Assembly (NCBI GenBank): GCA_002068015.1
Contig: MVRV01000139.1
Location: 1 to 42,909 of the forward strand
Length of the DNA stretch: 42,909 nucleotides
From: Smithella sp. PtaU1.Bin162
GTDB taxonomy: Bacteria; Desulfobacterota; Syntrophia; Syntrophales; Smithellaceae
Reading direction: 5' to 3'
Below the pieces are notes generated by a model, which worked only from the letters and a program-made list of their open reading frames with translations, made no database searches and was not told where the DNA came from. This document shows positions 1 through 23,388 of the stretch, one piece after another. Each line of letters opens with the position of its first letter. Within the stretch, counting starts at the first letter, position 1. A program made the position numbers and the translations under genes.

Positions 1-221
1 ACCGCCAAAGCTCGTTTTTCTCATCATTTTTTTTCAATGGAATGTTCAAGCGGTTTAACGAAATGTGAAAAAAAAGGAAAATAGGCTGAAGGCAGAAGAT
101 TTATGTGTAAGATGCCGGATTATAGGCAATTGAAGGCCAAAGAAAAGAAAGGTGGATATTGTTGCAAGTAAGAGTTTGTCGACAATCTTATGTAATTGGA
201 GATATTCAGGCGGCTGTATTA

Positions 222-250
222 TTGACACGGGGATGTCCAATGGATATAAT
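222..250 (+). promoter_or_regulatory. Perfect consensus sigma-70 promoter
   Basis: TTGACA at 222-227 and TATAAT at 245-250 are separated by exactly 17 bases, so both hexamers match the housekeeping consensus. Transcription would start near 257, leaving a leader of about 30 bases before the GTG start at 287. The rest of 1-286 holds no gene I can support. This is the strongest promoter by sequence in the window. Confidence 0.85.
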
Positions 251-286
251 ACCTCCGGAATTTAATAACATTCATAAGGTGTTTTT

Positions 287-823: not shown

Positions 824-839
824 TCAGGAGGTTTTTATT

Positions 840-1127
840 ATGCCGATTTATGAATATAAATGCCGGAAATGTGGTAAACAATTTGAAGCATTTCAAGGCA
901 TTACCGATCCGGAATTGAAAAGCTGCAAATTCTGCAAAGGTAAAGTTTCGAAAATTGTTTCCCTTTCTTCTTTCAGCCTGAAGGGCTCAGGGTGGTACGC
1001 TACGGACTACGGCGGAAAGAAAATACCATCAGCATCAACACCGGCTAAAGAAGCAACTACCGAAACAACATCTGCCGCAAGTGAACCGGCGCCGACAAAT
1101 ACTAAAACAGACAGCAAAGCAGATTAG
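840..1127 (+). CDS. FmdB/regulatory zinc-ribbon family protein
   Basis: A 95-residue protein starting MPIYEYKCRKCG, the hallmark of the FmdB zinc-ribbon family. Two CxxC knuckles (C8/C11 and C29/C32) should bind one zinc. The core ends near residue 55. The rest is a low-complexity tail rich in Ala, Thr, Ser and Pro, common in this family. The family's role is not settled: a regulator of formamidase/amidase genes in one organism and unknown in most. AGGAGG at 826-831 lies about 8 bases before ATG. It shares the operon with the HExxH protein and is closed by the terminator at 1153-1187. Confidence 0.88.
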   Translation: MPIYEYKCRKCGKQFEAFQGITDPELKSCKFCKGKVSKIVSLSSFSLKGSGWYATDYGGKKIPSASTPAKEATTETTSAASEPAPTNTKTDSKAD

Positions 1128-1152
1128 TGCTTGAAGAACAACTTGAGTAAAT

Positions 1153-1187
1153 AAAAAGGCAACGTTCCCGGCGTTGCCTTTTTATTT
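1153..1187 (+). terminator. Rho-independent terminator
   Basis: AAAAAGGCAACG at 1153-1164 pairs perfectly with CGTTGCCTTTTT at 1172-1183 around a 7-base loop, followed by more T-rich sequence. The A-run and T-run are symmetric, so it can also serve the convergent GalT-like gene ending at 1246. Confidence 0.9.
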
Positions 1188-1245
1188 AACCTGACTTCTC
1201 TTTCCCCGATGAAAAAATTCAGTCCGGTAAAAGCTTTAACTCTGA

Positions 1246-2280
1246 TTATGAATTAAAATACGGCTGCAGTTCGCGGCATAATTCTTCCGGCACAACCGGA
1301 CAAATAATTTCATTGTGCAGTTTTTCAAAATAATTGATATCGCTGGTACCTAGCGGATTAACCACAAAGCGCGGCACTATTTTCCCCTGCACCCAAAAGT
1401 TATTATCATTAATCATCGGAGCATAGAGTGATATATTGAAACTTATAAAGTTATTCAAATGCAGGTAACTGAATATTCTGGAAAGTCCGCTCAGCAACTC
1501 AGCAATATTCGCTTCCGTCAATTCAAAAAAAGACGATTTTTCCTGAAAAATAAAATCTATTTCTCCCCCCATGCTTTTAGGTGCAAAGCTGGTAAGCCAG
1601 CTGATCGATCCTGTAGAGGTAATAAATCTTTCCTGCGCCTCCTTTTCCAGGACAATCAGATTGCGCCATAAATTACCATTGGCATTACCGGCATATTTTT
1701 GGGCGCTCTCCAGAAGCCGCTGTACATAATTCGTGGGTTTTAAACCAACTACCGTCTGTAAATGCGGATGAATCACTCCACCACCGGCCGGCGGCATATA
1801 ATTCCAGTTTATGGAACAATATTTATAGCCCAGATTCATCTGGGCCATCCGGTGGAAATAATCTCCGCAGACCTTGAATCCGTTTTGCATAAAACCCGGT
1901 GTCAATTCATTCATCGGAACAAAATGCCGCGGTGAAAATATTGCCACCGAGTGATTTTGATCGTACGGAAAAGCATTGGGAAAAAGATAAGACTGGCCCC
2001 GCTGAAACCTTCCTTCAGAAATGATATCCGGAGTAAACTTCGGTGTCAGCTTTTCAAAAAGACCGGGACAAAAAGGACATAAAGATTCCGGAGATTTTTC
2101 CAGATAGGAATCAACTTCGGGCTTGAGAGACATGCGCGAGCGGTAGAGTAAAATACGGCTGGAAACGCCGGTAATGTCATCATAACGCACTTCAAAAGAG
2201 ACCTGCTTTTCCTGAAAATTATTAAATGGATCAAGATAACGGCCGACAGTTGTTTCCTTTTTAAATCCCAGTTTTTTCAT
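1246..2280 (-). CDS. GalT-like nucleotidyltransferase of the HIT superfamily
   Basis: A 344-residue protein resembling galactose-1-phosphate uridylyltransferase. A CPFC pair near residue 70 could be a zinc knuckle. The active-site-like HPHLQ follows the segment INWNYMPPAGGGVI. GalT has HPHGQ, where the middle His becomes uridylylated, so a nucleotide transfer or phosphorolysis is likely but the sugar substrate is unclear. No other Leloir gene is nearby. The ATG at 2280 overlaps the stop of the DHH gene (TGATG) behind GGGAG, so translation is probably coupled. A TTG one codon upstream is less likely. This is the last gene of the selD-DHH-GalT operon. Confidence 0.75.
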   Translation of the reverse strand: MKKLGFKKETTVGRYLDPFNNFQEKQVSFEVRYDDITGVSSRILLYRSRMSLKPEVDSYLEKSPESLCPFCPGLFEKLTPKFTPDIISEGRFQRGQSYLFPNAFPYDQNHSVAIFSPRHFVPMNELTPGFMQNGFKVCGDYFHRMAQMNLGYKYCSINWNYMPPAGGGVIHPHLQTVVGLKPTNYVQRLLESAQKYAGNANGNLWRNLIVLEKEAQERFITSTGSISWLTSFAPKSMGGEIDFIFQEKSSFFELTEANIAELLSGLSRIFSYLHLNNFISFNISLYAPMINDNNFWVQGKIVPRFVVNPLGTSDINYFEKLHNEIICPVVPEELCRELQPYFNS

Positions 2281-3341
2281 CAATTCTCCCTTCCGGTATG
2301 CAATGATTCCGGTTTTGTCCTTTGGGCTTTCTTCAGGTTTTCAACAAGAAACCTATCAACATTTTGTTGGGACAGGTTAACATCCAGATGACGGTCCAAA
2401 ATCGCCAGAGGGATTTCCATCCTGGCTGCGCTTTTATGTCCTCCTCCGCTGCCGTACAAACCAAACGCTTTCTGGGCAAGCGCTCCGCAATCCTGTCTGT
2501 AGCCGTCGCCGCGAAAAGTAATAATGAGCCTGTCTTCAACAATGCCTGCTACCACAACATAATAAGTACCGATCAAACGCAGATAAAAATCAGCTACCTG
2601 AACGCAGACATCGGAGCTTTCTACTTTCCCCAGAAAACAAACACGCCTGCCGCGAAAATTTTTCATGTGATGGAAGGCATGGTCGAAATATTTTAAAAAC
2701 CGGCCCGGCGTCTGGTTAAGTTCAACCCGGCGGATCAACTGCATATTGGCATATTTCATATGGTAGGTGTAAGCGCTGATATCCTCGGCAATCGTGTCGC
2801 GGTCAAAGTTATCGGTATCCGTTTTGATCCCATAGAGGAGGGCTGTATGCAGACCGCGGGAAATCTTAACACCGGCGCACAACAGATATTCCGTCATTAC
2901 AGTGGATAAAGCCCCGTAGTCTGGGCGGATATCCTCCACCGGAGCGTGCCAGGCGCCTTCACGCGGATGGTGATCAAAAACGATGTGCGGCTGCAGAAAA
3001 CTTAACATGCCGCTTAAAAAAGAAGGCTGGGCATCGACAAGCGCAATTAAACGATAGGAAGCCAGATCGATATTATTAATCAGCTGAACGTTAATCCGCA
3101 TGGCAAAAATGAGATCGTTGTTTTGTTGCCTGCTCACAGGTTCCGTAGAGGCAATAACACTCCGGACAAGCCTGCGCCGCCGCTGCAAAAGTTCTCGCAG
3201 AGCCAGCGCACAAGCAATAGCATCGGGATCAGGACTGCCGCACATGAGCAGAAGCAATGAATCATCCGGCGCGACAATATCCAGGAGCTTTATCAGATTC
3301 AGCTCCGTCTCTTTCTTGATAAAAACCGCTCCTCTTCCCAT
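2280..3341 (-). CDS. DHH/DHHA1 family phosphoesterase (NrnA-like)
   Basis: A 353-residue cytoplasmic protein. The N-terminal DHH domain shows D38-P-D40 in the motif SPDPDAIACA, D103 in LVDAQ and D123-H124-H125 in FDHHPRE. These are the expected Mn-binding residues. The DHHA1 substrate domain shows GSGGGHKSAA near the C-terminus. Family members degrade short oligoribonucleotides (nanoRNase) or pAp, or hydrolyse cyclic dinucleotides. The exact substrate cannot be fixed here. The His that often precedes the first Asp pair appears to be replaced by Met or Cys (LLMCGSPD). It sits 25 bases after selD and overlaps the next gene by one base. Confidence 0.85.
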   Translation of the reverse strand: MGRGAVFIKKETELNLIKLLDIVAPDDSLLLLMCGSPDPDAIACALALRELLQRRRRLVRSVIASTEPVSRQQNNDLIFAMRINVQLINNIDLASYRLIALVDAQPSFLSGMLSFLQPHIVFDHHPREGAWHAPVEDIRPDYGALSTVMTEYLLCAGVKISRGLHTALLYGIKTDTDNFDRDTIAEDISAYTYHMKYANMQLIRRVELNQTPGRFLKYFDHAFHHMKNFRGRRVCFLGKVESSDVCVQVADFYLRLIGTYYVVVAGIVEDRLIITFRGDGYRQDCGALAQKAFGLYGSGGGHKSAARMEIPLAILDRHLDVNLSQQNVDRFLVENLKKAQRTKPESLHTGREN

Positions 3342-3366
3342 GAATTAAAGATACCCGTCAATCCGT

Positions 3367-4419
3367 TCAGTAAACAAATATTCTGCCGGGATGATCTGCA
3401 ACAACTTCACCGACAATAGCAGCATCATTGACTCCGGCACGATGCATTTTCTCGAGGAGAACCGGAGCCTGTGCAGCAGGCAGGCTGAAGAACAGTCCGC
3501 CTGCCGTCTGGGGATCAAAAAAAACATCGGCAAGCCATGCCGGACAGGTAGAGGCAAATTCAATCTGAGAAATACGAAAATCTTTATTGCGGTAGAGGCC
3601 GCCGGGAACAAAACCTTCCTCAACTAATTTTTTCAGGCCGCCAAATACGGGAACGGCAGCCGAATTTATGCTTAAACCAACAGTACTGCCTTCAATCATT
3701 TCAGCGGCGTGGCCTAAAAAACCAAAACCGGTTATATCGGTACAGGCATGAATACCGCCGTTTTCTACAATCAGTTCAGCAGCCTGTTTATTAAGCCGGG
3801 TCATGGAATCGACAGCCTTATTCAACAACTCAGAATCGGCCTCGCCGCCTTTCAGAGCTGTGCTTACAATCCCGGTACCCAGAGCCTTGGTTAAAATGAG
3901 ACTGTCTCCGGCAACAGCGCCTCGGTTAAACAAAACCTTGTCCGGATGAATCAAACCGGTTACCGCAAGTCCGTATTTGATTTCACTGTCCTCGACGCTA
4001 TGACCGCCGACGAGCAGTGTTCCCGATTCGCGCATTTTATCGAGGCCGCCTCGAAGGACGTTGTGCAATATGCCGATATCCATTTCCTTTACCGGAAAGC
4101 AGACAATATTCATCGCTGTGAGCGGTTTTCCGCCCATGGCATAAATATCATTGAGTGCATTTGTTGCCGCTATCTGGCCGAAAGTATAAGGATCGTCAAC
4201 AGTCGGAGTGAAAAAATCAACCGTTTGCACCAAAGCAAGTTCGGAGCTCAGTTTATACACTCCCGCGTCTTCCGCATGTTCTATCCCGGTAAGTAAATTC
4301 GGGTCAGTAACTAGCGGTAAATCGCGCAAAGCCTCCTGCAGGTCTCCCGGACCTATCTTACAGGCTCAACCGGCGCCGTGTACTGTTTCCGTAAGACGGA
4401 TAACCTTTTTTTCTTCCAT
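3367..4419 (-). CDS. selD: Selenide, water dikinase (selenophosphate synthetase), selenocysteine-containing
   Basis: SelD makes selenophosphate from selenide and ATP, the selenium donor for selenocysteine and selenouridine. Read from ATG at 4417-4419 (GGCAAGGGA just upstream), the frame gives MEEKKVIRLTETVHGAG, an in-frame TGA at 4366-4368, then ACKIGPGDLQEALRDLP. That is the conserved SelD N-terminus, with Sec at residue 18 where homologues have Cys or Sec, followed by the catalytic Lys. The protein is 350 residues if UGA is read as Sec. A plain ORF call starts falsely at TTG 4329 and loses the active site. It heads the operon with the DHH and GalT-like genes. No selA, selB or tRNA-Sec gene is in the window. 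Confidence 0.95.
4330..4368 (-). promoter_or_regulatory. Putative bacterial SECIS element of selD
   Basis: Directly after the UGA the transcript can fold: GCCTG near the UGA pairs roughly with CAGGAGGC, and an apical stem GGTC/GACC closes a 5-base loop CGGGA. Position and size fit a bSECIS hairpin bound by SelB. The structure was judged by eye, not by a folding program. Confidence 0.65.
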
Positions 4420-4448
4420 TTTTCCCTTGCCTGAAAGTTTGTTGATAA

Positions 4449-4461
4449 ACGTTGCCAACGT
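4449..4461. promoter_or_regulatory. 13-bp perfect palindrome in the selD/thrC divergent region
   Basis: ACGTTG-C-CAACGT lies 30 bases upstream of the selD start, in the 201-bp region shared with divergent thrC. It could be an operator or a leader hairpin. On the minus strand a possible selD promoter lies further upstream (TTGGAA, 17 bases, TAGAAA). No clear thrC promoter was found. Confidence 0.35.
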
Positions 4462-4620
4462 CCAACACCGTTTTGTTGTTTCTACCACATACAGCCATAT
4501 TTTCCAACGGGATTTGCCGGATTTTTTATATTGCTCTTTCCGGTTACGCCCTCTATTTTTTATTGATTTATTTCGGGCAATAAGCTTAAAAGAAGAAAAG
4601 ATTTTAACAAAAGGATGACT

Positions 4621-6006
4621 ATGTCCATTCACTATTACAGCACCAATCGCAACTTAATAAATGTCTCCGGAATTACTCCCTTCACCGGTCTTGTTTCCTT
4701 TAAAGAAGCATTGCTTACCGGACAGGCTTCCGATGAAGGATTATTCGTTCCCGATTCGATTCCGCAACTTTCTTTAGCAGATATTCATGCCTTGAAGGAT
4801 AAACCCTACCGGTCAACCGCATTGCTTGTGGCACAGGCATTTCTTGCCGATGAGTTTTCCGCCGATGTTCTGGATAGCGTAGTTCGTGACGCCTATAACT
4901 TTCCGGTTCCGCTCGAAGAAGTATATCCGCAAACATTCATCATGCGTCTGGATCAGGGACCGACGGCTTCTTTTAAGGATTTTGCTGCAAGGATGATGGC
5001 ACGGCTGATGAGTCACTGCCGTCCGCAAGGCGAAAGGCTGAACATTCTGGTTGCCACATCCGGCGATACCGGCAGTGCGGTAGGCGACGCTTTCCGGGGC
5101 GTGTCCGGAATTGATGTCACCATTCTTTATCCGGTTTTGGAAGTAAGTTTACGGCAAAAGAAGCAACTCGACACGATCGGTGGTAACGTTCAGGCGCTTT
5201 CTATCCACGGCAAATTCGATGATTGTCAGAATTTGGTCAAACAGGCTTTCTCCGATCCGGAACTTACGAAATTTAATCTGACCTCGGCCAACTCAATTAA
5301 TTTCGGCCGGATTCTGCCGCAGATCATTTATTACGTTTATGCTTATGCGCAACTTGCCTCAGCCGGTGAACAAATGGTTTTTTCCGTACCTTCGGGAAAT
5401 TTCGGTAACGCTTTGGGCTGCGAATACGCAAGACGCATGGGATTACCGGTAGCCAGACTCATAATGCCGACCAACGAAAATGATGAATTTCCCGATTATC
5501 TGAAAACAGGCATTTACCAAAAAGTTTCCCCGTCGCGAGCCTGTATATCGAACGCCATGAATGTGGGACATCCCAGCAATCTCGCGCGGTTTTTCGAATT
5601 ATACGGCGGCACAGTGGACCGCTCGGGCCTTGTACACCTTTATCCGGACCTCGCAGAGATGCGGCGGCATATTTTTTCAGTAAGCATCACGGATGAGAAA
5701 ACCAGGAAAACCATTAAAAACACGTATGAAAGCTACGGCGCGATTTTGGAACAGCACGGCGCCGTGGGCTGGGCCGGACTGGAAGTATATAAAAACCTAA
5801 CGGCGGATACTCATCTGGCCGTATCACTGGAAACGGCACATCCGGCTAAATTCCCGGAGGAGATCGAAAAACTGTTAGGTTTTATCCCGGAATTGCCCGC
5901 AAGTATGAAAGGTATTGACGGGCGCCAGGGTAGGGCCATAGTCATGGCCAACAATTTTCCGGATTTCAAAAATTACTTACAAAACAATCTAAAGATAAAA
6001 GAATAG
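4621..6006 (+). CDS. thrC: Threonine synthase
   Basis: Converts O-phospho-homoserine to threonine with pyridoxal phosphate, the last step of threonine synthesis. The PLP lysine is in GPTASFKDFAARMM (K119 from this start). TSGDTGSAV and VPSGNFGNALG are the phosphate-binding and substrate loops of the fold-type II family. At 461 residues it matches the longer bacterial/fungal threonine synthase class. I chose ATG 4621 because AAGGA at 4611-4615 is properly spaced for it, while it overlaps the alternative ATG at 4615. It is a single-gene unit divergent from selD. A weak stem-loop follows at 6008-6035. Confidence 0.93.
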   Translation: MSIHYYSTNRNLINVSGITPFTGLVSFKEALLTGQASDEGLFVPDSIPQLSLADIHALKDKPYRSTALLVAQAFLADEFSADVLDSVVRDAYNFPVPLEEVYPQTFIMRLDQGPTASFKDFAARMMARLMSHCRPQGERLNILVATSGDTGSAVGDAFRGVSGIDVTILYPVLEVSLRQKKQLDTIGGNVQALSIHGKFDDCQNLVKQAFSDPELTKFNLTSANSINFGRILPQIIYYVYAYAQLASAGEQMVFSVPSGNFGNALGCEYARRMGLPVARLIMPTNENDEFPDYLKTGIYQKVSPSRACISNAMNVGHPSNLARFFELYGGTVDRSGLVHLYPDLAEMRRHIFSVSITDEKTRKTIKNTYESYGAILEQHGAVGWAGLEVYKNLTADTHLAVSLETAHPAKFPEEIEKLLGFIPELPASMKGIDGRQGRAIVMANNFPDFKNYLQNNLKIKE

Positions 6007-10465: not shown

Positions 10466-11131
10466 TTACTTATTTCCCGTTTTGTTTACGGCCTGATAAA
10501 CGTCTGCAATAATCTGCCGGGAAAGTTTCTGCATCGTCTGACTCATCGCCCGGCAGTATCCTTTGGGCGACTGTTCATCAAGCGGTTCTTCCCCGCGGTA
10601 TTTCTTCTGGAAAAGAATTCTTTTGACCGGTTCCCGCTGCTTTACATCCTTAACCGTTATATCGAGACTGAGAACAGCCTTGTTACCGCTTTTATCCGTC
10701 CGCAGAAAAAATTCTTCTATGCCTCCCTGCAGAAGATATCTGCCTTCATCCACGGCATAGCGGGAAAAAGCGGCACGGAACAATCCGCTTGTCTGCAGAT
10801 CACGCAGCAGATTGTCGCCCACCATATCGGCAGGATTCACCGCCCAGCGGTTATAGTTGAAAGAATCCACGGCATAACTGTTCCCGCGGAAAATCATGTT
10901 GGTATTGTTGTAGGCGGAAGCAATGGTAAAACGGCTGATGCGGATGGTATCCTCGATCCGGGAGCGCGGCTCCCAAACCGGTGCCGGATAATCAAGCAGA
11001 TAACTTTCCGTCTGCAACTGCGGTTTTCCGGTGCTGACACAGCCGAAAACCAGCGCAAAACAAAAGAGCGCAAAAAAAGTGTTTCCGGTAGTCCGGCAAT
11101 GTTGTTTTATGAACAAGAAAAAGGTTTTCAT
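10466..11131 (-). CDS. ABC transport auxiliary lipoprotein (PqiC/DUF330-like)
   Basis: A 221-residue predicted outer-membrane lipoprotein. After an N-terminal hydrophobic stretch, VFGC places the lipidated Cys at residue 31. The mature part begins VSTGKPQLQTESYLLDYPAP, the opening of ABC-type auxiliary lipoproteins. Further on FRGNSYAVDSFNYNRWAVNPADMVGDNLLRDL is typical of this family (tyrosine/arginine strand before the helix). Such proteins anchor the tip of long MCE tunnels at the outer membrane. Its place directly after the mlaD-like gene fits this. It overlaps nothing, with 14 bases between the genes. Confidence 0.82.
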   Translation of the reverse strand: MKTFFLFIKQHCRTTGNTFFALFCFALVFGCVSTGKPQLQTESYLLDYPAPVWEPRSRIEDTIRISRFTIASAYNNTNMIFRGNSYAVDSFNYNRWAVNPADMVGDNLLRDLQTSGLFRAAFSRYAVDEGRYLLQGGIEEFFLRTDKSGNKAVLSLDITVKDVKQREPVKRILFQKKYRGEEPLDEQSPKGYCRAMSQTMQKLSRQIIADVYQAVNKTGNK

Positions 11132-11145
11132 TTGACTTCTCCCGT

Positions 11146-12078
11146 TTATTCCATGGGTTTTTTAGGCGGCGCAGGCCTGCTGAAAATCAGTTCCGAAGGA
11201 TCATTATTTAAGCTTTCGGAAAGTTTCTGCAGATATTCGGATGTAATGCGGAGATTTTCCGCCGTATCCTGCAAATCAAGAGAAATGGACTTGGTTCTTT
11301 TATCAACAGTCTCCAGAATTTCTCCGGTTTTAACCGTCTGAGCAGCGAGGTCTATGGATTCGATTTTCTTTCTGGTGCTTTCGATCAGCTTACGGGCATC
11401 GATCAGAGCCTCTGAGGTTTCTTTTAAAACGCCTTCGATTTTTCCTTCTTCAATAATCTTATTTATCCGGGCGACCGATTTATCAAGGTTTACAGACATG
11501 GATTCCAGATTTTTCATTGTGCGGTTGACACGATCTCCGGCTATGAATGTTTCAATGGCTTTAGTCGTATTTTTCAACTGATTGGCTATACCCTGAAAAT
11601 CAATACCCTTGATGTTTTGCATTATTATGTTGGTATCGTCCAGAAACCGGCTGATTTCCGAACGGCGGGAAGGAATGACCGGATAAGGGGCATCAAATTT
11701 ATAGGTCAGCGAATCAATAATTTCCCCCGAACGATAGCGGTCGAGTTCGACAAAAACAATACCGGTAATACCGGCGGTTTTCAACTGGGCATAGGTGTGC
11801 GTCCGCAAATCGCCGGACAAATTAATTTTCATAACCACTTCGATTAAACGCTCGTCCGGCGCAACCTTGATGCTGTCCACCTTACCTATTTCCACTCCGC
11901 GATATTTAACGGCGGAATCGGTTTGCAGACCCTGGACCGATTCATCAAAATAAGCAACATATGTCAAGCCCTTGAGGAAGAAATCGGATGCACTGACCCA
12001 GATAATTGCAAAAGCGCCTATCAGCAAACCGGTTATGACAAATAAACCTATTAAAAATCTGGAACTTCTAACGGACAT
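11146..12078 (-). CDS. MlaD-like MCE domain protein, long form
   Basis: A 310-residue protein with one N-terminal membrane helix (about 8-28) and an MCE domain (about 38-120: YFDESVQGLQTDSAVKYRGVEIGKVDSI). A long helical region to about 295 with heptad-like repeats follows. MCE rings bind phospholipids, and long C-terminal helices form a tunnel in PqiB/LetB/Mce proteins. At 310 residues it is much longer than E. coli MlaD (about 183), so a needle-like bridge toward the outer-membrane lipoprotein is plausible. It overlaps the ATPase gene by 11 bases, indicating tight coupling. Confidence 0.88.
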   Translation of the reverse strand: MSVRSSRFLIGLFVITGLLIGAFAIIWVSASDFFLKGLTYVAYFDESVQGLQTDSAVKYRGVEIGKVDSIKVAPDERLIEVVMKINLSGDLRTHTYAQLKTAGITGIVFVELDRYRSGEIIDSLTYKFDAPYPVIPSRRSEISRFLDDTNIIMQNIKGIDFQGIANQLKNTTKAIETFIAGDRVNRTMKNLESMSVNLDKSVARINKIIEEGKIEGVLKETSEALIDARKLIESTRKKIESIDLAAQTVKTGEILETVDKRTKSISLDLQDTAENLRITSEYLQKLSESLNNDPSELIFSRPAPPKKPME

Positions 12079-12862
12079 AAGACCTATCCTGATTACTGTT
12101 TTCCGGTGCCTGCCTCAAGAAGAAACTCTTCACCCGGGGATCAGTTGATTTTTCTCGTAAATCTTCCGGGGTTCCTTCTGCTATTATTCCCTTGGATTTT
12201 TTATCCAGCATGATAACTCTGTCGGCAATTTTGCAAATGGATTGCAATTCATGAGATACGACCACCATTGTTGTCCCCAGCGCTTCGTTGGTTTTGATGA
12301 TTAAATCATCCAGCTCGACCGCCGTAATGGGATCAAGGCCTGCGGATAATTCATCAAAAAAAAGAACGAGCGGATCAAGAGCCATTGCGCGGGCGATGCC
12401 TGCCCGTTTTTTCATTCCGCCGGAAAGTTCCGAAGGATTATGATTTTCATAACCGGCAAGATTCACCATGCCCAATTTCATCTTAACAATCAAGTCAATT
12501 GTCGCGGCATCAAGGTTTGTGTATTCCGTGAGCGGCAGGGCAATATTTTCCCGGATTGTCATTGAACTGAAAAGTGCGCTGGATTGGAAAAGCACCCCGA
12601 TATTCTGCCGGAAATCGTTTAATTCCCTCTCCTCCGCCGCCATTATGTCCATTCCACCAAAAAGTACTCTGCCGGATGTGGTTTTCTGCAAACCGATCAT
12701 AACTTTGAGCAGCGTCGTTTTGCCGCAACCGCTTTCACCTACAATAACAAGAATTTCTCCTTTTCGCACCTGAAAACTGACATCTTGCAATACCGTATTA
12801 CTGCCAAAGCGAACAGTGGCCTTTTCCACAACTATTATCGGTTCGTTTTGAGTTGAACGCAA
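12068..12862 (-). CDS. MlaF-like ABC transporter ATPase
   Basis: A 264-residue nucleotide-binding subunit. Walker A is GESGCGKTT, the signature is LSGGMKKRAGIARAM, Walker B is LVLFFDELSAGLDP and the switch His is in VVSHEL. The LSGGMKKR signature is characteristic of MlaF/Ttg2A lipid transporters. It energises phospholipid movement through the MlaE-MlaD complex at the inner membrane. It lies 13 bases after mlaE and overlaps mlaD. In contrast to the second copy at 34952 it has no extra C-terminal domain. Confidence 0.92.
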   Translation of the reverse strand: MRSTQNEPIIVVEKATVRFGSNTVLQDVSFQVRKGEILVIVGESGCGKTTLLKVMIGLQKTTSGRVLFGGMDIMAAEERELNDFRQNIGVLFQSSALFSSMTIRENIALPLTEYTNLDAATIDLIVKMKLGMVNLAGYENHNPSELSGGMKKRAGIARAMALDPLVLFFDELSAGLDPITAVELDDLIIKTNEALGTTMVVVSHELQSICKIADRVIMLDKKSKGIIAEGTPEDLREKSTDPRVKSFFLRQAPENSNQDRSYVR

Positions 12863-12875
12863 AGCCTGCTGCTCC

Positions 12876-14021
12876 TTATCGCATATAATAAAACATTATG
12901 GCAAATATAGAATCCGCTACTACTATCAGAAAAATCGCCGAAACAACGGCGGAAGTCGTATATTTACCGACATCCTGCGCACCCGAACGCACCTGAAATC
13001 CTTTCTGGCAACCGACTCCGGCAATCAGCACGGCAAAGAAGGCCGCTTTAATGAGGCTTGTCACCACATCAAAAACCTGGATGGTTTTTAATGACTGGAT
13101 AATATAGGTATTGGCGGTCAGATCAAGACCGGTTACTCCGACTATCAAGCCGCCGATAATACCAAAAAAATCTGCATAAAGCGTCAGAACCGGCACAACT
13201 ATTACTGCAGCGATAACTTTAGGTATGGTCAGAAACCGGACTGCATTAAAGCCCATCGTGTTTAAGGCGTCGACCTCTTCATTAACAACCATGGTTCCAA
13301 TTTCCGCGGCAAAAGCCGAACCGGAACGGCCGGCGACCAGAATGGCAGTCATGATCGGCCCCAGTTCTTTCACCATGGCAAAACAGACCAATGATGGAAC
13401 ATAAATATTAGCACCAAGCGTGCGCAGTTGCAGGTAAGACATAAACGCAAGGATGAGTCCGATGAGCACGCTGATCAATCCGACAATCGGCAGACCGTCC
13501 ACACCCGCTCTTTTCATATAAAACAGAACGTCCCTGATCCGCAGCGACCGGGGATGCAAAACGGTATAAGCAATTGCAAACAGCAGTTCACCGGTAAAAG
13601 TTATGAAATTCAATACATCCCGCATAATACTGATGGAGGCTTCTCCAACCTGGGTCACGAGTCCTGTGCGTGTGTGACTGGCCTTAAAGGGCAATTGAGT
13701 CAGTGCTTTTTCGTAAATGACGCTGAAAATTCCCTTTGTTTCATCACTCAGGTTAATGAGAGAACAATCAACATTTTCACTTGCTGCGTTTTTTTGGATT
13801 TGCAGTATGGCGAGTGCGGCGGCACTGTCGATATAAGAAATACCGGAAAAATCAATATCTGCCGCTGAGACCTTCCGTTCCCGGAATAAATTTCTGATCT
13901 CCGCGGCAAAAGAAGTAAGATTTTTCAAGCCAAGGTCTCCTGTAAGGTAAATGATCAGTTTGGAATCCTGTCTTTTACAGGAAATCTTATAGCGTTTTTG
14001 CCAGTCTTGTTTAACATCCAT
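12876..14021 (-). CDS. MlaE-like permease with N-terminal STAS domain
   Basis: A 381-residue fusion. Residues about 15-105 form a STAS domain (LIIYLTGDLGL ... DIDFSGISYIDSAAALAIL) equivalent to E. coli MlaB. Residues about 130-381 are the MlaE permease with about five membrane helices and the conserved ELGPIMTAILVAGRSGSAFAAE segment. In E. coli MlaB binds MlaF as a separate regulator, and here it is built into the permease. This fused form is common outside enterics. It is the first gene of the minus-strand operon, with a candidate promoter at 14082-14110. Confidence 0.92.
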   Translation of the reverse strand: MDVKQDWQKRYKISCKRQDSKLIIYLTGDLGLKNLTSFAAEIRNLFRERKVSAADIDFSGISYIDSAAALAILQIQKNAASENVDCSLINLSDETKGIFSVIYEKALTQLPFKASHTRTGLVTQVGEASISIMRDVLNFITFTGELLFAIAYTVLHPRSLRIRDVLFYMKRAGVDGLPIVGLISVLIGLILAFMSYLQLRTLGANIYVPSLVCFAMVKELGPIMTAILVAGRSGSAFAAEIGTMVVNEEVDALNTMGFNAVRFLTIPKVIAAVIVVPVLTLYADFFGIIGGLIVGVTGLDLTANTYIIQSLKTIQVFDVVTSLIKAAFFAVLIAGVGCQKGFQVRSGAQDVGKYTTSAVVSAIFLIVVADSIFAIMFYYMR

Positions 14022-14489: not shown

Positions 14490-15077
14490 ATGTCTATAAT
14501 ATTGGATCGTAATAAAATACTCGATGCCAGTGTTGCAGTTATTGCCAAACATGGTTTCCGCAAAGCTTCTCTAACTGACATCGCCCGTCTTCTCGGAGTG
14601 GCTAAAACGGCACTTTATTATCATTTTCCCGGTGGTAAACAGGAGTTACTGCATGCGGTGATTCAGCGGGAAGAAGATATTATCTTGGAAGAAATGCGCA
14701 GAGCCGTAGTTTCTCAGGAAGATCCAAGAAAGCAACTGCGCAGCCTGATTTTAGCAAAGTTGATCCATTTCCACCGCCTGCGCGAGCTTTTTGATGTTAT
14801 CATTGATGTTGGCGAAGAACTGTTCAAAATTTATTCCGAGCATAAAACAGCCTTTCAAACTGCGGAACGCGAGATGATTCAAGATATTTTCCAGACGGGG
14901 CAAAAGCTGAATATGTTCAAGCCGTCCTCTAATATAATGCGTTTGGCCTCCAGTATTCAGTCGGTATTGCATCATCTGGAATTGCCACTGGTTTTTAACA
15001 GCCGCGAAGATATGGAAAAAGAAATTGATGAACTTTTAGAAATTCTTTTTTACGGGATTGCCGTCAAGCAGAATTAA
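14490..15077 (+). CDS. TetR family transcriptional regulator of the efflux operon
   Basis: A 195-residue DNA-binding protein. Residues about 8-55 form the TetR helix-turn-helix (ILDASVAVIAKHGFRKASL ... DIARLLGVAKTALYYHFPGGKQELL). The rest is the alpha-helical ligand-binding and dimer domain, which does not reveal the ligand. AAGGAGG lies 5-6 bases before ATG. It heads the operon with the membrane-fusion protein and the RND-TolC fusion, so it most likely represses the pump and is relieved by a pump substrate. A candidate operator overlaps its start point at 14454-14474. Confidence 0.9.
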   Translation: MSIILDRNKILDASVAVIAKHGFRKASLTDIARLLGVAKTALYYHFPGGKQELLHAVIQREEDIILEEMRRAVVSQEDPRKQLRSLILAKLIHFHRLRELFDVIIDVGEELFKIYSEHKTAFQTAEREMIQDIFQTGQKLNMFKPSSNIMRLASSIQSVLHHLELPLVFNSREDMEKEIDELLEILFYGIAVKQN

Positions 15078-15122: not shown

Positions 15123-16154
15123 ATGAAAATTTGTCATTTAGGAGGTGCCTGCCTTTTTTTAACTTTCCTTATGATTTTGGGCTGCAACAGCGATAAGACA
15201 GTAAATGAGCAGGCAGGTGTTCCTGTTGTAGCAAAGCAAATAGCGAAGATCAGTATTGATAAAGAAATTTCGGTCAGTGGAAACATCGAAGGCCGTAAAA
15301 CAGTCAAATTGGGTTTTCTGGTAGCCGGAAAAGTCAATTACATCGCAGCAAATGAGGGAGAGCCGCTTGCCGCCGGTCAATTGCTGGCCGGCCTTGATCC
15401 GGAAAATTATAAAATCGCCAAAGAGATGGCCGATGCCAACCTCGATCAGGTGCAGGACGAGTATAACCGGTTGAGCATTATGCATGAAAGAAAAAGCGTT
15501 GCAGATGGCGACTTTTCCAAAATCTCCAACGCTTTAAAGCTTGCCGGGGCACAACAAAGGCTGCACAACAAGAATCTGTCGGATACTAAGTTATATTCCC
15601 CGCTGAAAGGCGTGTTGCTGAAGAAAGGTACGGAAGTAGGCGAAATCGTCGGTGCCGGGTTACCGCTTTTCATTGTTGCAGATATTAGTGTTGTCAAGGT
15701 CAATGCCGCTGTTCCCGAAGCTGATTTGCAACAGATGAAAATCGGCAGTGACGCTGCTGTTTATATATCCCCCATCAATTCAACATTTTCCGGCAAGGTT
15801 GTAGAAATCGGTTCCGTGGCCGAACCGACGACGCGATCATTTACCGTTAAGATAGAAGTGAAAAATCCCCGGCTAATCATCCGGCCCGGCATGACGGCGG
15901 AAATAAAAGTGATGTCGGGACGAAAAACGGACATTATAGCTGTCTCGGTAGAGGCTGTGCTGCGCGAGCTGGACAATACCGCCTATGTGTTTATTGCCGA
16001 TAAAACCAGGAATCAGGCCTTTAAACGAAAAATATCTTTGGGCCGGATGGCGGGAAACAATATCGAGATTACCTCCGGTGTTGTACCAAACGAATGGGTG
16101 GTTACCGGTGGTCAGCATAAATTAAACAACGGCTCTTCCATAATGTTAAAGTAA
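15123..16154 (+). CDS. RND efflux periplasmic adaptor (membrane-fusion) lipoprotein
   Basis: A 343-residue adaptor. The signal peptide ends in LILGC, with the lipidated Cys near residue 21. It has the usual lipoyl/barrel-sandwich halves (KVNYIAANEGEPLAAGQLLAGLD and LYSPLKGVLLKKGTEVGEIVGAG), a short helical hairpin between them, and the beta-barrel and membrane-proximal domains to the end. It joins the inner-membrane RND pump to the outer-membrane channel across the periplasm. The fusion pump gene starts only 5 bases after its stop. The short hairpin (about 55 residues) resembles adaptors of the HAE/MexA type. Confidence 0.92.
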   Translation: MKICHLGGACLFLTFLMILGCNSDKTVNEQAGVPVVAKQIAKISIDKEISVSGNIEGRKTVKLGFLVAGKVNYIAANEGEPLAAGQLLAGLDPENYKIAKEMADANLDQVQDEYNRLSIMHERKSVADGDFSKISNALKLAGAQQRLHNKNLSDTKLYSPLKGVLLKKGTEVGEIVGAGLPLFIVADISVVKVNAAVPEADLQQMKIGSDAAVYISPINSTFSGKVVEIGSVAEPTTRSFTVKIEVKNPRLIIRPGMTAEIKVMSGRKTDIIAVSVEAVLRELDNTAYVFIADKTRNQAFKRKISLGRMAGNNIEITSGVVPNEWVVTGGQHKLNNGSSIMLK

Positions 16155-16159
16155 ACGTC

Positions 16160-19100
16160 ATGAATTTTATAAAAAAATCCCTCAAATATCCGCAAGTGAC
16201 CATATCCATTATGCTCCTGACTTTCCTGGTCGGCTTATATTCTTTAATTTACATGCCGCGGCGTGAAGACGCCAAAATTCTTATGCGCATCGGACAGGTC
16301 ATCGCTTACTACCCTGGAGCGAATTCACTGCAGGTTGAAGAGCAGGTGACCAGGAAACTCGAGCAGTATCTTTTTCAATATGAAGAAGTCAGGAAAGAGA
16401 AAACGATCTCTACTACCCGTGACGGTGCCGTCGTTATTAATGTATGGTTGAATGATGATGTGGAAAATGTGGATATTTTCTGGAGCAAGCTCAACCATCA
16501 GATGCTCGTACTGAAAGCCGTCAATCTGCCGCCGGGGGTGCAGGGCCCCTTTGTCAATTACGAATTCGGAGATACGGAGGCGCTGCTTGTCGGCATTGAA
16601 ATGGATCACCCCGATTACGCTCAACTGAGAGATTATGTCCAAAAGCTGGAGGACAGTCTCAAAACCATCAAAGCGGTTTCGAAAATAAAACGTATCGGCG
16701 AGCAGAAAGAGCAGCTTGTCATTTCATCCAGCAGTGCCAAATTAAATCAGTACGGGACCTCGTTTGCAAAAGTCATGCAGGTGTTGCAGTCACAAAACGC
16801 CATCGGGCCCACGGGTGATATCAAAACGTCCGATACCAAAATTACTCTTTACAGTCAGGGGTATTACAAAACAGAAACGGATATTGCCGATCAGATCATC
16901 GGTGTTGCCAAAACCGGCCAGGTGGTTCGCCTGAAAGACGTGGCTCATCTTCAAAGACAGTATCAGGAACCGGTATCCAAGGTTATGGTCAACGGGTGCA
17001 ACACCATGCTGCTGGCCGTTCAAATGCGGGAGGGCAACAATATCGTTGAATTCGGTAAAGAGGTGGACAGGAAACTGGCCGAAGCAAAAAAACTGCTTCC
17101 TGCCAACGTCAAGCTGACCACGATTGTAAATCAATCCAAAATCGTCGATAGAAATGTCAGCCAGTTTATGCGGGAATTTATTATGGCGATTGTTGCAGTT
17201 ATTGTGATCATCGTATTACTGCTGCCGTTCCGCGTTGCCGCTGTTGCCGCTATGGCTATTCCCATGACCATTGCGGTGACGTTTGCTCTAATGCATGCCA
17301 CTGGTATCGAACTGCATCAGGTTTCCCTGGCATCCTTAATTGTAGTATTGGGCATGGTGGTGGATGATGCCGTGGTTGTTGCCGATAATTATGTGGAGCT
17401 GCTCGACAAAGGTGTGAACAGGAGTCTCGCCGCCTGGAAGAGCGCAACCGAGCTTGTCGTACCCATTCTAACGGCCACACTGACCATAATTGCGGCCTTT
17501 TTACCGCTGGTGACTTTAACGGGGATGGTTCAGGAGTTCATTATTGCCTTGCCGCTGACCGTCTCCATCGCTCTGGCGTCTTCATTCATCGTAGCCATGC
17601 TTTTAACGCCTGCTTTGTGTTTCATCTTTATTAAAAAAGGTCTTCACAATTCTTTCACCGAATCAGCGCAAAATAAAAAAAAGGTATCGCTGCTCTCTCT
17701 GATGCAACTGGGATACGACAAAACGATCACTTGGTGTATGCTCCACTCCAAACTGACGATAGTCGTTTGTCTGTCTAGTATCCTCATGGCGGCTTTTTTA
17801 TATCAGGTTATTCCGCAGAAATTTTTTCCGGCTGCCGAACGAAACCAGTTTGTGGTCGATCTATGGATGCCTACGGGCACAAAATTGGAAAAAACCGAGC
17901 AGGTTGTTTTGAAAATCCGGAACATGATTAAAACCGACAAGAGAGTCGTTTCCTATGCAACATTTATCGGCGCCAGTTCGCCCCGCTTTTATTATAATTT
18001 TATGCCTGAACCACCGGTTGATAATTTTGCCCAGATACTTGTCAATACGTATACAGACAAAGAAGCGTATCAACTTTGCCTGGAATTAAATGCCAAAGCC
18101 GTAAGAGAAGTTCCGGAAGGAAATGTTCAGGCCAGGCTCATGCAGCAGGGAAAGCCTTCGATCACCTCTGTGGAAATCAGAATCGTCGGCGATGATATTG
18201 TAACACTGAAAAGCATTGGCAATCGGATTCAGGATATTATTCGCAAGACCCATGCTGCAGCCTTTGTTCGTACTGATTTCAAAGAGGATTATTATGGTGT
18301 TGCCGTTCGGCTTAAGGACAGTGCCGAACACTTGGGATTCACGACAAGCGGTATTGCGAAATCAATATACGGAGGCTTCACAGGTGTTTCGGTGTCAACC
18401 CTGTACGAAGGCAATACGCCCGTGGATATTCTCCTGCGGCTGGAGGAACAAAGCCGCAGGAATTTTGATGATTTGCAGAATATGTATCTTACATCACCTG
18501 CCACCGGAGCCGCCGTCCCGCTGCGTCAAATAGCATTATTAGAACCCGAGTGGCACAATGGCCGGATTATTCACCGCAACGGTCTGAGAACTCTGACGGT
18601 TCAATGTGAACCGGTGGAAGGAATGCTCGCCTCCCAAATCCTCAAAAAAATAATGCCGGACATATCCGGACTTGCTCTTCCTGTGGGCTACAGAATTGAA
18701 TATGGAGGCGAATACGAAAACCGGCGGGAAACATTCTCCGAAATGAGTCTGGCTTTGGGAATCAGTTTGCTCTTGATTTTCCTGGTTCTCCTGTTCCAGT
18801 TCCGCAACCTGAAAGAAACATCCATTGTGATGCTGACGATTCCCCTGAGCATGTTCGGAGCTTTACTGGGTTTATTAATAACCCGTAACTCCTTCGGGTT
18901 CACGGCCTTTGTCGGTTTGATCAGTTTGTCGGGTCTTGTGGTCAGAAATGCCATTATCCTGCTTGACCATGCCAACGAGCTTGTCCATAATGGCGTTGCC
19001 ATACCAACTGCCGCCCTCGAAGCCGGTAAAAGGCGGTTGCGGCCTATTTTTTTGACAGCCAGCGCGGCGGCGATCGGCGTCATTCCCATGATTATTTCCG

Positions 19101-20617
19101 GCTCGCCGATGTGGAGCCCCTTAGCCAGTGTGATCGCGGTTGGTATTATGTTCGCCATGGTCATATCCTTGTTGCTTGTACCGGTTCTTTATGCCCGGGT
19201 GATCAAACCATCAGATAAAAAACAAGAATTGGACACAGCGGAGAGCAAAGCTAAGGGGCTTGTTAAACCGGGAGCAATGACGGTGCTTTCCTGTATGATA
19301 TTGTTTTTGTTGGCGACGAACGTCAATGCCCAACAGAATACGGAAACATTAAATTTACAAAAAGTAATGGACCTGGCCGTTCAAAACAATCGCTTGCTTA
19401 ACATTAAGAAAATGCAGTTGGATGAAAAACAACAAAAAGTAAACGAAGACAGGGTAAAATATTTTCCATCCGTTACTCTTGGCGGTAATTATCAATATAA
19501 TGATCATTTGTCCGCTCTTACTATTCCGCAAGGTGCATTCGGTGAGCTTCCCCTGGGCGGAACCAGAATCCCAATGCCGGCGACGGGAAAAACTTTCATT
19601 TTAGGTGATCATAATACATACAGTTCTGCCGCCACATTATACCAGCCGATTTCCCAAATTCCGAAAATTAAAGCCGGGGTTGATGTTTCCAAAACGGAAC
19701 TGCAAATCGTAAAAATTGAACAGGATAAAGCAACCATGCAGGTCAAGCAAACCGCCGAAAAACTGTATTTCAGTTTGTTGATCTTGCAGAAGCAAAAAGA
19801 AGAGGCGGAAATCAAGCTATTACTGGCGAAGAAGAAACTGCACGATGCGGAAAGTGCAGTTCTCGCCGGCAAAGCCACCTTATCCAATGAAATAGGGCTG
19901 CGTGCCAATGTTGCTGATGAAGAACAAAATCTGCTGAAGATAAATATCCAAATTGACGATTATTCCGCCGACATGAAGCGTTTTATCGGATTACCTTCTG
20001 CAAGTATGTGTGTATTCACGCCGGTTTTTTTCGATGACACTCCTGTTCGTCTGCTGCCGATGGAGTCCCTTGTTCGGGAGGCGCAGGAGGGCAACACGGA
20101 TCTGAAAATTGCAGCTCTCTATAAGAAGAAAGCCGAGTATGCTGTTCGGGCAAGCCAATACAGCTATCTGCCTGATTTCGGTCTCATGGGCGGTTATACT
20201 TATCAGGAAGGCAATGCGCTCTACCCGGAAAATAATACATTTATCGGCATTTCCCTGAAATGGAATATTCAGGAAGCTTTTTCGAATACTTATGTGAAGA
20301 GGCAGCGCCTTTCCCTGAAAAAACAAGCTGAAGAAAATCTGGTAAATACATGCGAACAGGTCAACGCGGATATTGAAAAGGCATATCGGAAATTGGCACA
20401 ATCGGTCGAACTGATAGCAGTGGTTAATAAAGTATTGGCTTTTCGTCGGGAAGATTTAAAGATTCAAGCCGACCGTTACCATGCGGGGCTGAATCTGGAA
20501 GCGGACCTGCTGGCGGGTCGAGCTGCCCTGGCGAAGGCAGAAGCGGATTTATTTGCCGCGCAACTCAATTACAGGATTGCTTTGACGGAGCTGCAGATTC
20601 TTACCGGTAAATTCTGA
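16160..20617 (+). CDS. RND efflux permease fused to a TolC-type outer-membrane factor
   Basis: A 1485-residue protein. Residues 1-1018 are a full RND permease of the hydrophobe/amphiphile (HAE-1) type: a first membrane helix, periplasmic porter domains, and the TM4 proton-relay motif G398-M-V-V-D402-D403-A, ending after TM12 at VLYARVIKPSDKK. A basic linker (1019-1039) follows. Next is a signal-peptide-like segment MTVLSCMILFLLATNVNAQQ at 1040-1059 with an AxA-like site after A1057. A complete TolC-family factor occupies 1060-1485, with two repeats of helices and ending NYRIALTELQILTGKF. No stop or frameshift separates them. GGGAG lies only 2 bases before the internal ATG at 19277, too close for good re-initiation. 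Topology (C-terminus of RND inside, basic linker, hydrophobic segment) would let signal peptidase release the channel. RND-TolC fusions are known among some Bacteroidota CzcA-type pumps, but for an HAE-type pump this looks rare. Confidence 0.92.
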   Translation: MNFIKKSLKYPQVTISIMLLTFLVGLYSLIYMPRREDAKILMRIGQVIAYYPGANSLQVEEQVTRKLEQYLFQYEEVRKEKTISTTRDGAVVINVWLNDDVENVDIFWSKLNHQMLVLKAVNLPPGVQGPFVNYEFGDTEALLVGIEMDHPDYAQLRDYVQKLEDSLKTIKAVSKIKRIGEQKEQLVISSSSAKLNQYGTSFAKVMQVLQSQNAIGPTGDIKTSDTKITLYSQGYYKTETDIADQIIGVAKTGQVVRLKDVAHLQRQYQEPVSKVMVNGCNTMLLAVQMREGNNIVEFGKEVDRKLAEAKKLLPANVKLTTIVNQSKIVDRNVSQFMREFIMAIVAVIVIIVLLLPFRVAAVAAMAIPMTIAVTFALMHATGIELHQVSLASLIVVLGMVVDDAVVVADNYVELLDKGVNRSLAAWKSATELVVPILTATLTIIAAFLPLVTLTGMVQEFIIALPLTVSIALASSFIVAMLLTPALCFIFIKKGLHNSFTESAQNKKKVSLLSLMQLGYDKTITWCMLHSKLTIVVCLSSILMAAFLYQVIPQKFFPAAERNQFVVDLWMPTGTKLEKTEQVVLKIRNMIKTDKRVVSYATFIGASSPRFYYNFMPEPPVDNFAQILVNTYTDKEAYQLCLELNAKAVREVPEGNVQARLMQQGKPSITSVEIRIVGDDIVTLKSIGNRIQDIIRKTHAAAFVRTDFKEDYYGVAVRLKDSAEHLGFTTSGIAKSIYGGFTGVSVSTLYEGNTPVDILLRLEEQSRRNFDDLQNMYLTSPATGAAVPLRQIALLEPEWHNGRIIHRNGLRTLTVQCEPVEGMLASQILKKIMPDISGLALPVGYRIEYGGEYENRRETFSEMSLALGISLLLIFLVLLFQFRNLKETSIVMLTIPLSMFGALLGLLITRNSFGFTAFVGLISLSGLVVRNAIILLDHANELVHNGVAIPTAALEAGKRRLRPIFLTASAAAIGVIPMIISGSPMWSPLASVIAVGIMFAMVISLLLVPVLYARVIKPSDKKQELDTAESKAKGLVKPGAMTVLSCMILFLLATNVNAQQNTETLNLQKVMDLAVQNNRLLNIKKMQLDEKQQKVNEDRVKYFPSVTLGGNYQYNDHLSALTIPQGAFGELPLGGTRIPMPATGKTFILGDHNTYSSAATLYQPISQIPKIKAGVDVSKTELQIVKIEQDKATMQVKQTAEKLYFSLLILQKQKEEAEIKLLLAKKKLHDAESAVLAGKATLSNEIGLRANVADEEQNLLKINIQIDDYSADMKRFIGLPSASMCVFTPVFFDDTPVRLLPMESLVREAQEGNTDLKIAALYKKKAEYAVRASQYSYLPDFGLMGGYTYQEGNALYPENNTFIGISLKWNIQEAFSNTYVKRQRLSLKKQAEENLVNTCEQVNADIEKAYRKLAQSVELIAVVNKVLAFRREDLKIQADRYHAGLNLEADLLAGRAALAKAEADLFAAQLNYRIALTELQILTGKF

Positions 20618-20795: not shown

Positions 20796-21920
20796 ATGAT
20801 GCAGTCTTCAGCTAAAATGAAAATTGGTGTTTTATACGGCGGAAGATCGGGTGAGCACGACGTTTCGCTTTGTTCGGCGGCGTCGGTAATTTCAGCGCTG
20901 GACGGCAACAAATACGAAATCACAGCCATAGGCATAGACCGGGACGGCAAATGGTATGTTCAGGATAAACCGGAAATAATTCCCCATAAGGATTTTGGCA
21001 GGATCCTTTCCCTGAAAAAAAGAGGGAACTGGTTGGTCAATCATTTCGAAAATGAAAACAGGATATATCTGTATAATTTAGAAAACAAAGACGAAATCGT
21101 TATCGTTGACATCGTATTTCCTGTTTTACACGGGACATTTTGCGAAGACGGAACTTTGCAGGGGCTCCTGGAGCTTGCTATGGTGCCTTACGTCGGGGCG
21201 GATGTTATCGGTTCGGCAATCGGTATGGATAAGGATGTTGCCAAAAGGCTGCTCGGTGCAGCCGGTATTCCGACAGTGCCTTCCCTGACGGTAAACAAGC
21301 AGCACTGGTATGATCATCAGGAATCGATTGTGCAAAAAGCCATTTCCGAACTGGGTTTGCCGCTTTTTGTCAAGCCGGTATGTGCCGGTTCTTCCGTCGG
21401 CGTAAAAAAAATAAAAGACAAAGTATCCTTCCCGGAAGCGGTAAATTTTGCTCTGCAGTTTGATACGCGGGCGATAATTGAAAAAGCCGTCGACTGCCGG
21501 GAAATCGAATGCGCGGTGCTCGGCAACGAAAACCCTGAAGCCTCAATCCTGGGAGAAATCGTTTCCAGTCATGAGTTTTATTCCTATGAGGCCAAATATA
21601 TTGATCCGAACGGAGCCGTGACAAAAATTCCCGCACAGGTCGAACCTTCGCTTGCTGCTTTGATCAGGCAAACAGCCGTTGCCGGATACAGAGCTCTGGG
21701 GTGCAGTTCCATGGCCCGGGTTGATTTCTTTCTCGATAAAAAAACCGGCGAGTTCTACCTCAACGAAATAAATACGCTTCCCGGTTTTACGAGCATCAGC
21801 ATGTATCCCAAACTCTGGGAGGCTACCGGAATTAAATATGGCGATCTTCTCGACAAGCTGATTCAATTCGCGCTGGACAGACATCGAAAGAAGCAAGCAG
21901 TTAAAACAGAGTACAGGTAA
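20796..21920 (+). CDS. ddl: D-alanine-D-alanine ligase
   Basis: A 374-residue ATP-grasp enzyme that makes the D-Ala-D-Ala dipeptide for peptidoglycan. The N-terminal motif is GGRSGEHDVSLCSAASV. The ATP-binding segment is GLPLFVKPVCAGSSVGVKK. The omega-loop FYSYEAKY keeps the Tyr that marks D-Ala rather than D-lactate specificity. The metal and phosphate end is NEINTLPGFTSISMYP. It is slightly longer than usual (about 305-365), as in the DdlA-type subgroup. GGGGAT precedes ATG 20796, with a second ATG at 20799. It is a single-gene unit with its own promoter. Confidence 0.94.
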   Translation: MMQSSAKMKIGVLYGGRSGEHDVSLCSAASVISALDGNKYEITAIGIDRDGKWYVQDKPEIIPHKDFGRILSLKKRGNWLVNHFENENRIYLYNLENKDEIVIVDIVFPVLHGTFCEDGTLQGLLELAMVPYVGADVIGSAIGMDKDVAKRLLGAAGIPTVPSLTVNKQHWYDHQESIVQKAISELGLPLFVKPVCAGSSVGVKKIKDKVSFPEAVNFALQFDTRAIIEKAVDCREIECAVLGNENPEASILGEIVSSHEFYSYEAKYIDPNGAVTKIPAQVEPSLAALIRQTAVAGYRALGCSSMARVDFFLDKKTGEFYLNEINTLPGFTSISMYPKLWEATGIKYGDLLDKLIQFALDRHRKKQAVKTEYR

Positions 21921-22086: not shown

Positions 22087-23388
22087 ATGTCTGATATTCC
22101 CCTATCTCATCCTGCATCATACTGGAAAAAATCTTCCAAAGATCCTCGTGTGACGAAAGGAGAACTTTCCCGCGCAACAATATTGGATACCGCCCATGAT
22201 GTGTTCAAAGCGATGGGCTACTACAATGCTTCCATTTCGGAAATTACCCGCAGATGTAATGTTTCCGCCGCTACTTTTTACCGGTATTTCAAAAATAAGG
22301 AGCAGATATTTCTCCAGCTGACCGGTATGGTTATATCCCGTTTTAAGGTAATGGCGGCTTCCTTGAAGCTGGAAGGACTTGATTTTCCCGGAAGATTACG
22401 GGAGGTTATAAAACTTCTTTATATTCACAGCCGTGACAATTTTGCTTTTCACAGGATGCTGGGTGAATCGGAGCTTATCGACCATGTTGCCATTGATTAT
22501 TATGAATCCATCGCCGAGTTTTTCCGGAATTATCTCAAGCGCGAAGCACGGGCAGGAAATATCCGGACGGTGAATCCGGACATTGTCGCTTATGCACTCA
22601 TGGGTATTTGTTATTTTCAATTTTTAAGAAAAGACAAAACGAATGATGAGTTTTCCGAGGATAAAACCGTAGATTTGCTTACCGAGTTGGTTATTAACGG
22701 CATCAGCGGACCGGCCCGGTGGAATAAAGCGAAAAATTGGGACATCCTGAACAAGCCAGTCCCTGTTCCGATAAATGCCGTAAAAGGTGAACCGATAACA
22801 AAAGGTGAAAAAACAAGAGAGACGATTCTGCTGTCGGCAGAAAAAATATTCGGCCAGTTGGGGGTTAATCGCACCAATATTGCGGATATTACCCGTGACG
22901 CCGGTGTTGCCCATGGTACTTTTTATGTTCATTTTGAGAGTAAGGGCGAATTACTGGAAGGGCTTGTAAAATATGCCAATCATCTGATTCGCAGAGATTT
23001 GCAACGATCGGTTGTTAATGTCCGTGACAGAAGAGATATTGAGCGCATCGCAATTCTAGTAAGCTTCGAATTCATTCAGCGCCATAAATGGATCTACAGA
23101 ATCGTGCCCGAATTTGAAATGATCGATAAGACGGTTACCTTCTGGTACTATAACAAAATATCCGAAGGTTATATTCGAGGGCTGGAACAGGGAATAAATA
23201 AAGGTCAGATACGCAGTATCCCTCCGACATTTCTGGCCTGGTATCTGATGGGCTATACTCATTTCATTTCTCTGAAGTGGATTGTTTGGCCCGTTGATTC
23301 TCAGACAAGAATGACCGATAAAATGGTGAAAGAAATAATTGAATTTATGCTGTTCGGTATAAAACCGGTAAAAAAAATAAAAAAATAA
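22087..23388 (+). CDS. Regulator with two TetR units in one chain
   Basis: A 433-residue protein made of two TetR halves. The first helix-turn-helix is at about 28-78 (ATILDTAHDVFKAMGYYNAS ... CNVSAATFYRYFKNKEQIF), with a helical domain to about 215. The second helix-turn-helix is at about 243-293 (ETILLSAEKIFGQLGVNRTN ... AGVAHGTFYVHFESKGELL), with its own helical domain to the end. Both recognition helices look intact, so one chain may act as a covalent pseudo-dimer or bridge two sites. It lies 458 bp upstream of the transporter/CoA-ligase cluster on the same strand and is the natural regulator of it (inference). The two halves are clearly diverged, not a recent duplication. Confidence 0.88.
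   Translation: MSDIPLSHPASYWKKSSKDPRVTKGELSRATILDTAHDVFKAMGYYNASISEITRRCNVSAATFYRYFKNKEQIFLQLTGMVISRFKVMAASLKLEGLDFPGRLREVIKLLYIHSRDNFAFHRMLGESELIDHVAIDYYESIAEFFRNYLKREARAGNIRTVNPDIVAYALMGICYFQFLRKDKTNDEFSEDKTVDLLTELVINGISGPARWNKAKNWDILNKPVPVPINAVKGEPITKGEKTRETILLSAEKIFGQLGVNRTNIADITRDAGVAHGTFYVHFESKGELLEGLVKYANHLIRRDLQRSVVNVRDRRDIERIAILVSFEFIQRHKWIYRIVPEFEMIDKTVTFWYYNKISEGYIRGLEQGINKGQIRSIPPTFLAWYLMGYTHFISLKWIVWPVDSQTRMTDKMVKEIIEFMLFGIKPVKKIKK

Follow-up and report, generated by a model that had tools for sequence, protein, structure and literature searches.

An RND permease fused in frame to a TolC-type outer membrane channel in Smithellaceae, a putative drug-type pump precursor with an apparent signal peptide at its joint

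In the 42,909-nucleotide stretch of Smithella sp. PtaU1.Bin162 DNA that was analysed here (the window), a single gene (16160-20617, plus strand) was found to encode both an RND permease and a TolC-type outer membrane channel, in one open frame of 1485 residues that begins with ATG and contains no internal stops. Pfam searches placed ACR_tran (PF00873) on residues 4-1012, with an E-value of 1e-172 and model positions 2-1018 of 1021 covered, and two OEP repeats (PF02321) in the C-terminal part of the protein, the best of them at 1302-1483 (E 2.5e-41). The dN/dS ratio is about 0.1 in each half and higher in the linker that joins them; both the permease half and the channel half are under purifying selection. 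The initial annotation of this DNA had described a complete RND permease running in frame into a complete TolC-type channel, and it was mostly right: the fusion is confirmed as real. Judged from its sequence, the product is quite likely a precursor polyprotein, to be cut by signal peptidase I into a permease and a channel.

The permease half (residues 1-1012, 16160-19195, plus strand) is by its motifs and sequence matches of the HAE (drug) type and MexK/TriC-like, which agrees with the class first assigned to it. AcrB D407/D408 are the two acidic TM4 residues of the HAE class, as opposed to the DG pattern of metal pumps. In the window TM4 reads VVDDAVVVADN, with VDDAVV in place of the VDGAVI or IDGAVI of the 11 CusA/CzcA-type proteins sampled, and VDN is found in TM4 of many split members of this permease family. 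Against the HME family model TIGR00914 the fused protein scored 346.5 bits, the cut-off being 701, and this score together with the VDD of TM4 rules out a metal-type (CusA/CzcA, HME) pump. At the TM10 position of AcrB K940 (VVRNAIIL in the window) an Arg, and not the Lys looked for in HAE permeases, is present here and in nearly all family members; MexK also has R there in the alignment, and this is a known variation that excludes nothing from the HAE class. The top sequence matches to solved structures were MexK (492 bits) and TriC (418 bits), followed by the next PDB entry at 241 bits, a nearness that comes from comparison with PDB sequences only and not from a tree containing MexK and TriC. 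These closest HAE-1 permeases, which belong to the MexJK and TriABC systems of Pseudomonas aeruginosa, are permease-only chains, whereas the window gene has the channel built in; MexJK borrows OprM or OpmH for this purpose (PMC9323910). The tripartite plan and the TolC fold are shared with AcrAB-TolC, which is however encoded by three separate genes.

The channel half, whose predicted mature part comprises residues 1058-1485 (19331-20614, plus strand), is modelled as a complete TolC-type fold. The AlphaFold model, which spans residues 1006-1485 only, has a pLDDT of 82 and contains, in the channel, four long strands and long paired helices; a Foldseek search with it returned TolC first (9tg4/1ek9) with E-values of 7e-20 to 3e-18 and a TM-score of about 0.7, at a sequence identity to TolC of about 17%. 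In the same model a short helix (1038-1052) gives way, where the cut is predicted, to a break of low confidence, and the folded channel begins only about 8-10 residues beyond the hydrophobic segment.

Between the two halves lies what is, on sequence grounds, the old signal peptide of the channel. A variable polar linker follows TM12 (residues 1013-1039, 19196-19276, plus strand), appears as low-confidence coil in the AlphaFold model and carries a basic stretch ahead of the hydrophobic core, so placed that it serves as the putative n-region of an internal signal peptide. The predicted h- and c-region (residues 1040-1057, MTVLSCMILFLLATNVNA; 19277-19330, plus strand) are recognised from conservation and from the model. 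The junction reads VLYARVIKPSDKKQELDTAESKAKGLVKPGAMTVLSCMILFLLATNVNA and then, past the predicted cut, QQNTETLNLQ, with an AxA-like site (VNA before QQ) after residue 1057 (nt 19330). A basic linker, a hydrophobic stretch and this same site had been noted initially as a signal-peptide junction, and this description stands, as does its resemblance to the N-termini of separately encoded channels. Among 11 Smithellaceae orthologues the mean pairwise identity is 28% in the linker (1015-1035) and 32% in the hydrophobic part, while the permease reaches 77% and the channel 66%; Ala at -1 and a hydrophobic core are nevertheless present in all 11, with a basic residue ahead of the core in each. Signal peptides were judged here by simple hydrophobicity and -3/-1 rules rather than by a trained predictor, and by these rules every fused junction examined, whether from Smithellaceae, other Desulfobacterota, Persicobacter, Gemmatirosa or G258 (a genome from the Bacteroidia search), shows an h-region, with Ala or Gly as the -1 residue, immediately ahead of the mature channel, as the separate channels do at their N-termini.

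Within Smithellaceae, 51 genomes were covered, and all of the 11 copies that reach the junction, including two cut by contig ends, are fused; they come from three genera, and relatives are found at 74-79% identity. The gene is absent from many members of the family. One genome retains, at 3349-3741 of L111 (G041:C199), 130 codons from the channel end of the fused gene and nothing more of it. Two separate genes in all close relatives had been named at the outset as an observation that would speak against the fusion; no close relative proved to be split, separate genes being confined to more distant Bacteroidota. Outside the family, the nearest relative comes from Breznakibacter (Bacteroidota); its permease is 64% identical and stops after 1023 residues, and a channel gene with its own signal peptide starts 23 bases further on. 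Three further Bacteroidota relatives (permease 58-62%) likewise have two genes, as do more remote ones at about 34-43%. These split Bacteroidota relatives (Breznakibacter L044/L103, L080, L081 and L147) have adaptor, permease and channel in the order of the window, the permease being 58-64% and the channel 37-43% identical to it, but their permease has its own stop and their channel its own start and signal peptide. In two Bacteroidota a gene resembling patatin-type lipases lies between the permease and channel genes (L089, 5063-5845; L097, 5062-5841).

Permease and channel of these two families are also fused at full length, at 38-43% identity, in other Desulfobacterota families (G644, G727, G685 and G809), where G728 holds a fragment of such a fusion, as well as in G258, on plasmids of Persicobacter and on two of Gemmatirosa; the replicons that carry fused homologues include complete circular plasmids and contigs of whole-chromosome size (G727:C1 and G809:C1). 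One fused member is in RefSeq (WP_338399011.1), under the name 'efflux RND transporter permease subunit' alone. It had been stated that no described case was known for this pump class: no description of a drug-type RND-channel fusion was found in the open-licence literature, which is weak evidence of absence, and in this respect the statement holds, but such fusions are already present in databases, as this entry illustrates. Where fused chains are named only as permeases the channel then seems to be missing, which is a warning to annotators.

A precedent among the CzcA-type pumps of Bacteroidota had been noted initially, and it was borne out by the genomes: among 63 strong RND hits in 15 Bacteroidia genomes, about a fifth have open frames of at least 1400 residues, and 11 of the 12 such frames that were read encode a CusA/CzcA-type permease fused to TolC by the same kind of junction. 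These proteins are like the window fusion in order, in length (1445-1474 residues) and in their signal-peptide junction, but their permease is of the metal type (VDG in TM4, compared with VDD in the window) and belongs to another RND branch. The remaining frame (L192, G058:C56:173100-178100, 158-4402) joins a drug-type permease to a lipoprotein adaptor; the periplasmic adaptor follows the permease C-terminus, and an internal lipoprotein-type signal, LVMLLASC, is present. This is another kind of pump polyprotein. In 14 Desulfobacterota genomes two of the 49 matches listed are of at least 1400 residues, that of the window and L193 (G446:C98:2700-8000, 96-4763). In the latter, which belongs to a different RND branch, an MdtB-like permease is joined to a TolC-type channel, likewise by a signal-peptide-like junction. 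Taken together, the counts from Bacteroidia and Desulfobacterota indicate that the permease-channel fusion is a known architecture, common in the metal pumps of Bacteroidota but rare among pumps of the drug type.

The permease tree and the channel tree agree in outline, and in both the Smithellaceae fusions branch within a series of split Bacteroidota genes, while the other fused homologues form fused clades separate from them. The fusions of Persicobacter, Gemmatirosa and other Desulfobacterota belong to the same families, whereas that of Smithellaceae lies inside the split Bacteroidota grade. One ancient fusion, with all fused permeases forced into a single clade, gave a tree worse by 197 log units (p-AU 4e-95). 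Since a single clade of all fused proteins is rejected, the split or fused state must have changed at least three times. The simplest reading is that of transfer between Bacteroidota and an ancestor of Smithellaceae, with fusion there and other fusions elsewhere, the direction and the number of events being inferred; a single fusion in the ancestor, followed by splits and a renewed fusion, may also account for the trees.

The fused gene belongs to a tripartite pump operon. Five bp upstream of it ends the gene of a 343-residue RND periplasmic adaptor, or membrane fusion protein (15123-16154, plus strand), which scores 176.9 bits with TIGR01730 against a cut-off of 94.9, and an adaptor gene lies directly upstream of the permease, fused or split, at every locus with a readable flank. 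Ahead of the adaptor a TetR-family regulator is encoded (14490-15077, plus strand; PF00440, E 5e-14), which probably represses the pump operon locally; in a congener (G006) the equivalent place is taken by a TetR gene of 71% identity. Promoter and terminator scans gave sites no more numerous than in shuffled sequence. Directly downstream of the pump is a D-Ala-D-Ala ligase gene (20796-21920, plus strand), as is likewise the case in a congener (L104, 12105-13223, 79% identity), and further on a 433-residue chain carries two TetR DNA-binding domains (22087-23388, plus strand). Divergent from the pump operon is an Mla-type lipid transport operon (10466-14021, minus strand), comprising MlaE with a STAS domain, an ABC ATPase, MlaD and an ABC auxiliary lipoprotein.

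On the precursor reading, the ribosome would translate the MexK/TriC-like permease straight on into the TolC-type channel, and the permease would enter the inner membrane, leaving its C-terminus on the cytoplasmic side. The signal peptide kept at the joint would then act as a 13th hydrophobic segment, its N-side cytoplasmic, and start a second export event, after which signal peptidase I would cut after A1057 on the periplasmic side. The freed channel would pass to the outer membrane and rejoin the permease through the adaptor encoded upstream, to form what would presumably work as a drug-type pump, and the net effect would be that permease and channel are synthesised equally from one reading frame. 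The likeness of the trees of the two halves supports this reading, whereas the fact that cleavable signal peptides within polytopic proteins are uncommon counts against it.

Cleavage and an uncut tether had initially been presented as alternatives, but they do not carry equal weight and cleavage is much likelier. An uncut chain would act as a tether between the permease trimer of the inner membrane and the channel trimer of the outer membrane and fix a 3:3 stoichiometry, which is attractive insofar as both halves are trimeric in known pumps, so that a fusion would match their copy number. In known pumps, however, the channel N-terminus is far above the inner membrane. The N-terminal part of known channels lies in the equatorial belt, at mid-height of the periplasmic alpha-barrel (PMC8277102, and as known for TolC), and about 8-10 residues are too few to reach it from the inner membrane; with so short a spacing, it is difficult to see how an uncut chain would assemble in the normal manner. 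Selection for a tether would moreover predict a long conserved linker, whereas it is the linker that drifts and the cleavage-site Ala that is kept, and we regard a lasting tether as highly unlikely. It is also unlikely, if somewhat less so, that the channel arises mostly by internal initiation near its old start codon, the system acting as two overlapping genes. The window does have an in-frame ATG roughly where the old start would have been (19277-19279), with GGGAG a few bases before it, and an ATG is found at the equivalent place in two other copies (L017 and L018), so some separate channel could be made there as well. No conserved internal start codon was found across the Smithellaceae copies, and L013 and L015 lack any start codon upstream of the h-region, from which it follows that their channel and its signal must be translated within the chain. 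Initiation at the window ATG would also drop the basic n-region, and internal initiation alone would not require a stop-free fused frame, yet every copy keeps one.

There is little to suggest that the fused protein is a relic that is in decay or no longer functions: G041 indeed keeps just the 130-codon tail of the channel, but the low dN/dS of both halves and the intact frames of all the other copies make this a very slight chance. In a draft genome of 191 contigs one might suspect that a stop separating two genes was lost through misassembly or faulty sequencing. Such an error is practically precluded, and is rejected here, because the eleven fused copies come from separate draft genomes and homologous fusions are found on closed plasmids and on whole-chromosome-size contigs. 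The reading thus preferred for the window gene is that of a precursor with a predicted cut at the channel's own signal peptide.

In a wider perspective, we consider it rather probable that RND pump operons repeatedly become precursor polyproteins, in which the permease and an outer-membrane partner (or a lipoprotein adaptor) emerge as a single chain that signal peptidase then divides, with fixed stoichiometry and coupled assembly as the outcome, a route that we did not find described for drug-type pumps. The fusion bears on the questions of how Gram-negative cells match the numbers of inner-membrane pumps and outer-membrane channels, and of whether the parts are assembled jointly or come together by chance. 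A naturally occurring precursor of permease and channel that has arisen several times, and whose predicted cleavage site is kept while the linker drifts, would offer a direct test of how pump and channel are matched.
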